Source of the DNA: Ruegeria spongiae
GTDB lineage: Bacteria; Pseudomonadota; Alphaproteobacteria; Rhodobacterales; Rhodobacteraceae
Assembly: GCF_023502395.1 (NCBI RefSeq)
Contig: NZ_JAMFMB010000001.1
Coordinates: forward strand, 186,001 to 250,000
Length of the DNA: 64,000 bases
Direction of reading: 5' to 3'
A program made the translations under genes and the position numbers. Of this stretch, positions 55,315 through 58,152 are shown piece by piece. The number at the start of each line of letters is the position of its first letter. The stretch's first letter is position 1. The notes beneath the pieces were generated by a model. It was not told the DNA's origin. It saw nothing but the letters and a program-made list of their open reading frames with translations, and searched no databases.

Positions 55315-55569
55315 ATGAAAACTGTAATAAGTTCCGTGCCGGTTTTGGCATGTATTGCCGCCGTGTTGGTGGCGGGGTGCGTACCGTCGCCCGAAAATTA
55401 CGAAACCACACCGGTGCAGGTGCAGACCGACAAGGGCATCGTCACCTGTCAGCTATATTCCAAGGACCTCGTCGTCTGGGACCGCGCCATCGACCGTCCC
55501 AACAGCATGGGCGTGCAAGAGGCTGACGCCATCTGCAAGGAAGAGGGCAAGCGCGAGAAACGCCGCTAA
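55315..55569 (+). CDS. Small predicted lipoprotein
   Basis: An 84-residue protein from [22 protein letters not shown] with a lipobox (LVAGC, Cys22) and a short mature part [35 protein letters not shown] ending in a basic tail. GGGGAAAG precedes the ATG. The position-2 residue after Cys is Val, not Asp, so outer-membrane delivery is likely. No known domain; function unknown. It overlaps the convergent HerA-like gene by 4 bases. Confidence 0.75.
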
Positions 55570-57107
55570 CGCCCTTTGAACAGGCTGCCGAGGATACCCC
55601 GCACCAGACGGCGGCCTGTGGTGCCTTTCAGTTCCTTGATCACCGCCTCACCCATCGCGCTGGCGAACGTATCCTTGCGGCGGGTGATGCGTGACGAGGA
55701 CCGACTGACCCGCGACCCGCTGTAGCGCCGTGCCGAGGCATACTCGCGCTGCGCGGTGGGCTGGTCTTCGAAGAATGTCTCGGCGGTCTCCGCCTCCTGC
55801 GCCGCCTTGTCCGCGCGGGCCGACAGGATTTCGAAGGCGGATCGGCGATCCAGCGTCTTTTCGTATTTTCCCGCCAGATCCGAGTTGGCAATGAACGCCT
55901 TGCGCTCGGCCACAGTGATCGGACCAAGCTGCGTCGAAGGTGGGCGGATCAGGGTGCGTTCGACAATGCCGGGCACGCCTTTCTTCTGCAACATCGAGGT
56001 CACCGCCTCGCCCACACCGACCTCGCGGATCGCCTCTTCGGTGTCAAAAGCCGGGTTCTCGCGATAGGTTTCGGCGGCCAGCCTGAGATTCTTGCGGTCG
56101 CGCGCGGTGAAGGCGCGCAGCGCGTGCTGGATACGGTTGCCGAGCTGGCCCAGAATATCCTCGGGCACATCGGCCGGGTTCTGGGTGATGAAATAGACGC
56201 CCACCCCCTTGGAACGGATCAGCCGCGCCACCTGTTCCACCTTGTCGACCAGAACCTTGGGCGCGTCATCAAACAGCAGATGCGCCTCGTCGAAAAAGAA
56301 GACCAGCTTGGGTTTTTCGGGATCACCCACTTCTGGCAACTCCTCGAACAGCTCGCTCAGCAGCCAGAGCAGGAACGTGGCATAAAGCCCCGGTGCCGAC
56401 ATCAGCTTATCGGATGCAAGGATGTTGATCATCCCGCGCCCCTCGCCGTCCTGGCGCATCAGGTCCGACAGTTCCAGCGCCGGTTCCCCGAACAGCTTGT
56501 TGGCGCCCTGGTTCTCGATCACCAGCAAACGCCGCTGGATCGCGCCCACCGATGCGGTCGAGATATTGCCATAGCGCAGCGACAGTTGCGCCCGGTTCTC
56601 GCCAACCCAGACCAGCAATGCCTGCAGGTCCTTGAGGTCGAGCAGCGGTAGACCCTCTTCATCGCTCAGACGGAAGGCAATGTTCAGGATGCCCTCCTGC
56701 GCCTCGCTCAGTTCCAGCAGGCGCGACAGCAGCAGCGGCCCCATTTCGCTGACCGTGGTGCGCACCGGGTGGCCTTGTTCGCCGAACAGGTCCCAGAAGG
56801 CGACCGGGCTGGCGCGATAGGCGTAATCGTCGAACCCGATCTGCGCGGCGCGGTCGGTGAAGGCCTGATGCAGCTTGTGATCAGCACGGCCCGATTTTGC
56901 GAGCCCGGACAGATCGCCTTTGACATCGGCCAGGAACACCGGAACGCCGGCCTGCGAGAATCCTTCTGCCAGGATCTGCAATGTGACGGTCTTGCCGGTG
57001 CCTGTCGCCCCGGCGATCAGACCGTGCCGGTTGGCGTAATTCAGCGCCAGCCCCTGTTTCACGCCATAGTCCGGCCCGCCGCCGCCCAGGAAAATCTTGC
57101 CGTCCAT
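55566..57107 (-). CDS. HerA-like (DUF853/YjgR) ATPase
   Basis: A 513-residue HerA/FtsK-superfamily ATPase. Walker [19 protein letters not shown] is near residues 30-45, Walker [17 protein letters not shown] near 270 and the arginine-finger/sensor region [32 protein letters not shown] near 310. The C-terminal 90 residues are Ser/Arg-rich. These stand-alone proteins probably form hexameric rings; the substrate (DNA or protein) is not known. Unlike archaeal HerA, no NurA or Sir2 gene is adjacent. Confidence 0.88.
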
Positions 57108-57182
57108 TGATCTTGTGCCCCAATCTCACCGTTTCGCCCCGACCATACAAACTTAACCTTTGTCTGCGAAAGTGCTTTCTGT

Positions 57183-57247
57183 CCTGCCATTTGGCGGGGC
57201 AGTTTCCTCCCTGTCAGACTGGCCGTGCCTCCGGGCACGGCTTTTTT
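57183..57247 (+). ncRNA. Candidate small RNA 1 (3' end defined by terminator)
   Basis: On the plus strand an otherwise gene-free stretch ends in a perfect intrinsic terminator: GCCGTGCC (57222-57229) with GGCACGGC (57234-57241) and six T. Upstream is a hairpin CCTGCC/GGCGGG (57183-57198, loop ATTT) and a single-stranded CU-rich patch TTTCCTCCCT (57203-57212) that could pair with ribosome-binding sites. No plus-strand ORF feeds this terminator. The 5' end is not identifiable, so the start given is only the first base of the hairpin. Confidence 0.55.
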
Positions 57248-57289
57248 GCGTGTTTCCGTCAAAGCGATTCGATTTTTTTCGCTTAGCTG

Positions 57290-57318
57290 TTGACCCGTTG
57301 GCTCTGCTCTCGTAACGT
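57290..57318 (+). promoter_or_regulatory. Promoter of candidate small RNA 2
   Basis: TTGACC (57290-57295) is followed after exactly 17 bases by TAACGT (57313-57318). A start near 57325 would give a transcript that ends at the terminator at 57393, with no ORF. Confidence 0.55.
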
Positions 57319-57324
57319 CTGCGC

Positions 57325-57393
57325 ATAACTAAGTCGGCCAGTCCGACGGGGAGAAAAATTTTGAAGAGAGGCTGATCAACGGCCTCTCTTTTT
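57325..57393 (+). ncRNA. Candidate small RNA 2
   Basis: About 70 bases: a short stem-loop GTCGG-CCAGT-CCGAC (57333-57347), a purine/A-rich linker GGGGAGAAAAATTTTGA (57348-57364) typical of an Hfq-bound region, and a terminator AGAGAGGC (57365-57372) with GCCTCTCT (57382-57389) and T-tract to 57393. A promoter is visible upstream. No reading frame explains the promoter-terminator pair. The family is not recognised. Confidence 0.6.
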
Positions 57394-57519
57394 GCTTTCT
57401 CACGCGCGGCAATTTCATGGAATTTCGCAAAACGCTGCCACCCGCGCCGATTGCCCCTGACACGCCTCTGCGGCCATGCTAGACCCGGCCCAAACAGAGC
57501 GACAATCCAAGAGGCAAGC

Positions 57520-58152
57520 ATGTTCAAGAAAGTGACACCGGCCTGCATAGCGGCCCTTCTGGCGCTGAGCACAGCGACCTATGCGCAGGACACGACCGAG
57601 ACCGAGACCGACACTGTGGAAAGTGACCAGGGTGCCGTCGAAAACGCCGAGAGCGAAGGCGTTCTGGACCTCGGTCAGCCGGTTGCCGATGCTCAGCAAC
57701 TGGGCAGCCGCTACTCCAAGGAAACCTTTGGTGACTGGAACCTGGCATGTATCAGAACCGAAGCCGAGACAGATCCCTGCTCACTGTTGCAGGTCATGAA
57801 CGGCCCTGATGGCAATCCGATGGCTGAAATGTCGCTGTTCCGGATCAAAAACAGTGGTGCCGCGATCGCGGGTGCAACGATCATCGTCCCGCTTGAAACA
57901 CTGCTGACCGCGCAACTGACCATCTCGGTCGATGGGGCGCCGGGCAAGCGGTACAATTACACACTGTGCAACCCGGTCGGCTGCGTGGCGCAGATCGGGC
58001 TGACCCAGGAGGATATCGACGCGATGAAAAAAGGGACCGAGGCCACCATTTCGCTGGTACCCGCACCAGCCCCGGACCAGAAGATCGACATCAAGATGTC
58101 ACTCAAGGGCTTCACCGCCGGATTCGACGCGGTGGATGTGATCGACAACTGA
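57520..58152 (+). CDS. Invasion-associated locus B (IalB)-family exported protein
   Basis: A 210-residue protein from MFKKVTPACIAALLALSTATYAQD, with signal peptide cleaved near residue 22, followed by a Thr/Glu-rich acidic stretch to about residue 60 and the IalB domain with FGDWNLACIRTEAETDPCSLLQVM, ATIIVPLETLLTAQLTISVDGAPGKRYNYTLCNPVGCVAQIGLTQEDIDAM. Cys residues pair for disulfides. IalB was named in Bartonella; in marine Rhodobacterales it is a common periplasmic protein of unknown role. AAGAGGC positions the start. Confidence 0.88.
   Translation: MFKKVTPACIAALLALSTATYAQDTTETETDTVESDQGAVENAESEGVLDLGQPVADAQQLGSRYSKETFGDWNLACIRTEAETDPCSLLQVMNGPDGNPMAEMSLFRIKNSGAAIAGATIIVPLETLLTAQLTISVDGAPGKRYNYTLCNPVGCVAQIGLTQEDIDAMKKGTEATISLVPAPAPDQKIDIKMSLKGFTAGFDAVDVIDN

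Follow-up and report, generated by a model that had tools for sequence, protein, structure and literature searches.

In Ruegeria spongiae, the 412 bases that separate ialB from a divergently oriented herA-like gene hold the genes of two candidate small RNAs (sRNAs), here called RNA1 and RNA2, in tandem on the plus strand of the 64,000-nucleotide window (the whole stretch of DNA that was analysed). The two are probably separately promoted and terminated sRNAs, RNA1 being a SorX/alphaR8-like regulator and RNA2 a sponge of the SorX/SorY-like family. Three results go beyond an earlier sequence-only reading of this DNA: the same genome encodes, in SorX and a SorY-like RNA, the best partners of RNA2, the arrangement is family-wide, and a conserved block stands upstream of RNA1.

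The herA-like gene (HerA_C family; PF05872, E 3e-223) occupies positions 55566..57107 on the minus strand and ialB (PF06776, E 1e-37) positions 57520..58152 on the plus strand; both lie outside the RNA system, as its divergent upstream and its downstream neighbour. A divergent herA-like neighbour is present in 72/80 relatives, and in 69 of the 70 relatives that could be tested RNA2 is followed by ialB in the same orientation. RNA1, RNA2 and ialB are also found together in R. sphaeroides 2.4.1, where a catalase gene stands upstream in place of herA (L045 2413-3879), so that the sRNA pair is linked to ialB and not to herA. The genome was assigned to this strain from its SorX and SorY, whose positions agree with those published for 2.4.1. 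The terminator hairpins of the two RNAs lie 142 bases apart on the plus strand, at 57221-57242 and 57363-57391. A T run follows each, and among the plus-strand terminator candidates of a GC-rich 5-kb stretch these two are the strongest. The sequence-only reading had described them as terminators with no upstream plus-strand ORF to terminate, and both are indeed present behind a gene that runs the other way.

RNA2 extends from about 57325 to 57393 on the plus strand, the start being placed from the -10 element. Its sigma-70-type promoter, TTGACC-N17-TAACGT, is present as the earlier reading gave it (57290..57318, plus strand; TTGACC at 57290-57295, TAACGT at 57313-57318). It falls below the 9-of-12 cut-off of a simple promoter scan; GTTGAC is found in 112/115 relatives, with a common C.TAgCGT element about 17 bases further on. 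The 5' stem-loop and A-rich linker that had been proposed also appear in the predicted fold, which consists of a 5-bp hairpin, the A-rich (purine-rich) linker and the terminator, and folding is stronger than in shuffled sequence (z = -3.5). The antisense core CGGCCAGUCCGACGGGGAG (57335..57353, plus strand) comprises most of the hairpin (57333-57347) and a free GGGGAG, and the intrinsic terminator (57363..57393, plus strand) has a 12-pair stem before its T run. Hairpin 1 is paired in all 30 aligned sequences, with C-G or U-G replacing U-A at one position, and nine of the ten modelled pairs of the terminator helix show two-sided changes that keep the pair in the same alignment. The covariation observed in these helices was reached by none of 500 shuffles and was far lower for slid versions. 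RNA2 matched none of the families of Rfam 15; the only hits were two sub-threshold microRNA models of the hairpin, with E values of 5-7.

RNA1, a candidate SorX/alphaR8-like sRNA gene, lies at approximately 57181..57247 on the plus strand, both ends being inferred. It is made up of a hairpin (57181-57200), the sequence UUUCCUCCCU (57203-57212) and the terminator (57221-57247), and its folding is also stronger than that of shuffled sequence (z = -4.0). A hairpin followed by a single-stranded CU-rich patch had been claimed for it, and this depends on the 5' end: with a start at 57181 the predicted fold has an isolated 5' hairpin, a free CU-rich patch and then the terminator, whereas a start at 57183 leaves part of the patch paired. 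Among 31 aligned relatives the CCTCCCTGT..GACTGGCCG core is conserved and the terminator covaries, and the sequence of the 5' hairpin is too variable to align. Upstream of RNA1 is a conserved block, ATACA - TTAACC - GCGAAAGT (57145..57173, plus strand), with the consensus A..ATaca...TTAACc.tt...tGccA...T in 99/115 relatives, those that could be anchored on TTAA. A variant of the block is retained in R. sphaeroides with the catalase gene replacing herA, which indicates that it belongs to RNA1 and not to herA; judged by its sequence it is probably the promoter of RNA1 or a regulator site. TTAACC (57153-57158), in the relatives as well, is followed by A/T-rich bases and resembles a CtrA half-site.

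The covariance search that had been proposed for this spacer returned three sub-threshold Rfam matches to RNA1: SorX (RF02784; 30.5 bits, E 3e-5, gathering score 46.6), mmgR/alphaR8 (RF00519; 24.3 bits, gathering score 41) and SorY (RF02651; 22.7 bits, gathering score 111). The gathering score of RF00519 is reached by no locus in ten Rhodobacteraceae genomes. RNA1 is not SorX itself: the true SorX of this genome scores 88.7 bits in RF02784 and is found on a different contig with other gene neighbours, beside a gene for an OmpR-type regulator, the same arrangement as in R. sphaeroides. The genome also holds a SorY-like RNA (59.4 bits). With a SorX and a SorY-like RNA of its own in the genome, and with scores below the gathering scores, RNA1 is a further related RNA of the loose SorX/SorY/alphaR8 group and neither SorX, SorY nor a formal member of alphaR8. 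It shares with SorX and SorY the motif CCUCCCUGU..GAC.UGGCC and a terminator, but has GUCAGAC where they have GUUGGAC and lies at another locus, behind the divergent herA-like gene. Like MmgR/alphaR8 RNAs (RF00519, ‘suhB’), it has the exact UUUCCUCCCU core, with a hairpin ahead of it and a terminator behind, although its score is too low for that family and its gene neighbours differ. The single-stranded position of UUUCCUCCCU between hairpin and terminator is what defines alphaR8 sRNAs (PMC12559287), and the earlier suggestion that the CU patch could mask ribosome-binding sites fits, by analogy, the published role of this core in alphaR8 sRNAs (PMC12559287).

The CU patch had also been called roughly complementary to GGGGAGAAA in RNA2, which in terms of sequence is an understatement. 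The RNA1 segment CUCCCUGUCAGACUGGCCG (57207..57225, plus strand) is antisense to RNA2 57335-57353, with 18 of 19 bases able to pair and a duplex energy of -38.3 kcal/mol, and only 1/2000 shuffles of the RNA2 core gave as good a pairing. RNA2 pairs better still with the SorX of this genome, at -43.2 kcal/mol over 20 contiguous pairs, and for the SorY-like RNA the energy is -38.7 kcal/mol; for each of these two, 0/2000 shuffles were as good. When the opening of both partners is taken into account, the net energy is -14.1 kcal/mol for RNA1, about -23 kcal/mol for SorX and about -15 kcal/mol for the SorY-like RNA. About 8 kcal/mol of this cost falls on the opening of the RNA2 hairpin, for which a chaperone would be needed, or else a contact that begins in the loop.

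This complementarity is specific. In 26 genomes there are 87 occurrences of CTCCCYGTYRGACT, the 14-base partner site, compared with four of the reversed pattern, and nearly all of the occurrences are in SorX-family RNAs, in RNA1 or in the complement of RNA2 itself. In the genome of the window there are exactly four: SorX, the SorY-like RNA, RNA1 and RNA2's own complement. Since the site is confined to SorX-type sRNAs, the perfect partners of RNA2, if it acts through the CGGCCAGUCCGACGGGGAG stretch, would be a single group of sRNAs. Extended complementarity to the common seed of siblings, the mark of a sponge, is thus found for SorX, the SorY-like RNA and RNA1 of one genome. Three exact copies of CTCCCYGTYRGACT lie outside known SorX-family RNAs (G011:C3:131963, G019:C4:379167 and G164:C18:141681); these may be further siblings or chance occurrences.

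Across 32 genomes, the best SorX-family RNA and the RNA2 of the same genome form 13 to 20 uninterrupted pairs, and a total energy as low as that of the own-genome RNA2-SorX pairs was obtained in 11/2000 permutations, a comparison that ignores phylogeny. Substitutions in RNA2 at positions paired with the consensus RNA1 partner kept a standard pair in 76 cases and broke it in 3, again with phylogeny ignored. Changes in the hinge and the GACTGGCCG block of RNA1 often break the pairing with RNA2, and RNA1 may therefore be the looser partner. Compensatory two-sided changes between RNA1 and RNA2 were looked for at 19 pairs and seen at none of them (0/19). In the RNA1-RNA2 alignment 93% of cells are paired, no better than in row shuffles, because both sides hardly vary. 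As far as sequence can tell, the case for a selected pairing is one of extreme conservation and specificity, not of compensatory change. A longer RNA2 loop, CCAAGU, is seen in some relatives, and GGACUU tends to occur in SorX/SorY-type RNAs of the same genomes, in few cases of mixed types. The same loop occurs with GACUUGCC in RNA1 at 4/9 versus 2/106, likewise a small number of cases in which phylogeny is ignored. Both associations are suggestive of co-change.

The pair is widespread in Rhodobacteraceae. A 251-base query had a blastn match in 146 of 198 genomes of the family, and the RNA2 core was found in at least 119 stretches of named genomes, the matches listed being almost all from Rhodobacteraceae, Rhodobacterales or member genera. 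From stretches with the RNA2 core and from other loci, a set of 115 non-identical RNA1-RNA2 pairs was drawn. In more than 100 relatives from many genera the cores of both RNAs are nearly invariant and the flanks are not. The alignment of the spacer among relatives, which had been suggested as a check, bore the sequence-only reading out: stems, terminators, promoters and cores are conserved, and the RNA2 helices and the RNA1 terminator covary. A covariance model of RNA2 (R1) finds it in 271/292 Rhodobacteraceae genomes, nearly always as one copy, and outside the family, in a sample of the class, in 8 genomes only and weakly (25 to 32 bits). Most members of one genus (g24) and a few other genomes have no RNA2 or only a very weak match to it.

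Known sponges offer the closest comparison. CrfA of Caulobacter crescentus is a sponge whose G/A-rich element pairs with the UUUCCUCCCU core present in each of SisA-D, four sibling alphaR8 sRNAs; with the help of Hfq it lowers the level of the main alphaR8 sibling and so relieves the mRNA targets of that sibling (PMC12559287). RNA1 has exactly the UUUCCUCCCU core that the CrfA targets have in common, and the sponge reading of RNA2 is favoured because its complementarity is of the same kind, and to the same kind of seed, as that of CrfA. The two differ in that CrfA uses residues 49-63 of its second stem-loop, while RNA2 uses its short first hairpin and GGGGAG, in that the RNA2 match extends 13 to 20 bases into GUUGGACU, and in that one target-like RNA stands in tandem with RNA2. 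RNA2 is thus likened to CrfA by its mode of pairing, as an analogue and not a recognisable homologue, R1 having no strong matches outside Rhodobacteraceae in the sample of the class. QrrX of Vibrio is likewise a single sponge that acts on several siblings, the Qrr sRNAs, in another bacterial group and with other targets (cited in PMC12559287).

In the proposed mechanism, the CU-rich core of RNA1 would pair with ribosome-binding sites, and the RNA2 hairpin with the adjoining GGGGAG would serve as the antisense of the common motif of the family, CUCCCUGU(U/C)(G/A)GACU. GGGGAG and the loop CCAGU would make the first contacts, after which RNA2 would form 13 to 20 base pairs with SorX, with the SorY-like RNA and with RNA1. 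The sRNAs so bound would be kept from their mRNA targets or sent to decay, presumably with Hfq and an RNase assisting. Because SorX and SorY contribute to the survival of photo-oxidative stress in R. sphaeroides (PMC8307010), RNA2 would reset the response to that stress. For this sponge role we infer from sequence that the RNAs are transcribed, which way the antagonism runs, that Hfq and an RNase take part, and what the physiological signal is. The wider proposal, that a single-copy sponge beside one of its own targets sets the level of free SorX/SorY-like sRNAs in nearly all Rhodobacteraceae and is a family-wide hub, seems to us only slightly better than an even bet.

RNA2 could instead be an ordinary trans-acting regulator of mRNAs, using its loop and G-rich patch, with RNA1 and SorX as its antagonists or with the pairing as a side effect of their anti-ribosome-binding-site sequences. 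GGGGAG is a generic purine patch, and the RNA2 core is conserved more strictly than pairing with RNA1 alone needs, both of which would suit this reading. However, the complementarity continues over 14 to 20 bases into GUUGGACU, which is not generic, and within the genome it is confined to SorX-type RNAs; moreover, mRNAs are known to be regulated by SorX and SorY in R. sphaeroides (PMC8307010), so that RNA2 is more likely to be the antagonist. The published targets are a polyamine-transporter mRNA for SorX and takP for SorY. We regard the mRNA regulator as unlikely, if still the most serious competitor. Considerably less probable is a reading of RNA2 as a terminated leader at the 5' end of ialB, with read-through controlled by SorX-type RNAs. 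The near-constant position of ialB next on the same strand is what such a leader would predict, and the family already offers an example in UpsM, the leader of the dcw cluster (PMC5089854), yet ialB has a likely promoter of its own past the RNA2 terminator, CTGACA-N17-TAGACC with TGC before the second element (57457..57485, plus strand). A looser form of this pattern is found in 36/76 relatives, where shuffles give about 0.04 per locus, and the strict form, TGACA-N12to16-(T/C)GCTA, in 26/76, where they give 0.001. The RNA2 terminator is also strong and covaries, which does not favour regulated read-through.

That the spacer merely has RNA-like features by chance, with conservation limited to terminators and promoters, is very improbable. 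Terminator-like sites are not rare here, eight being found in the 5-kb stretch against 4.4 expected, but the invariance of the RNA cores next to variable flanks, together with the covariation, excludes a chance origin in practice. Identity or homology with StsR (‘sRNA targeting sRNA’) of R. sphaeroides can be dismissed almost entirely. StsR is a stress-induced RNA of 72 nt that pairs with another sRNA (PMC8307010), and the sRNA-with-sRNA pairing of StsR and UpsM is a real likeness to RNA2; sequence and locus differ. The published sequence of probe p-0827 for StsR/RSs0827 (PMC3688512) has its site near 858 kb on chromosome 1. The RNA2 homologue lies elsewhere on that chromosome, at 1426.5 kb (1426533-1426605, minus strand), and does not contain the probe sequence, and this candidate was rejected.

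Sponges of sibling sRNAs are already known. As far as the literature examined and Rfam go, RNA2, as a family-wide sponge in tandem with a partner, is undescribed, and it may already stand, without a name, in an RNA-seq list for R. sphaeroides. If the sponge reading is correct, RNA2 would be a ready answer to how the SorX/SorY anti-Shine-Dalgarno sRNAs are switched off in R. sphaeroides, and the answer would cover a large and ecologically important bacterial family. The sponging of alphaR8-type sRNAs, reported from Caulobacter in 2025, would then be a recurring principle in Alphaproteobacteria.

One further feature of RNA1 is seen outside the window. The window's own RNA1 does not have it, but in many relatives (L020, L025, L031, L032, L223, L228 and others) there is another CU-rich stretch, GUCCUCU, in the loop of the RNA1 5' hairpin, and this stretch is possibly a second anti-ribosome-binding-site element.
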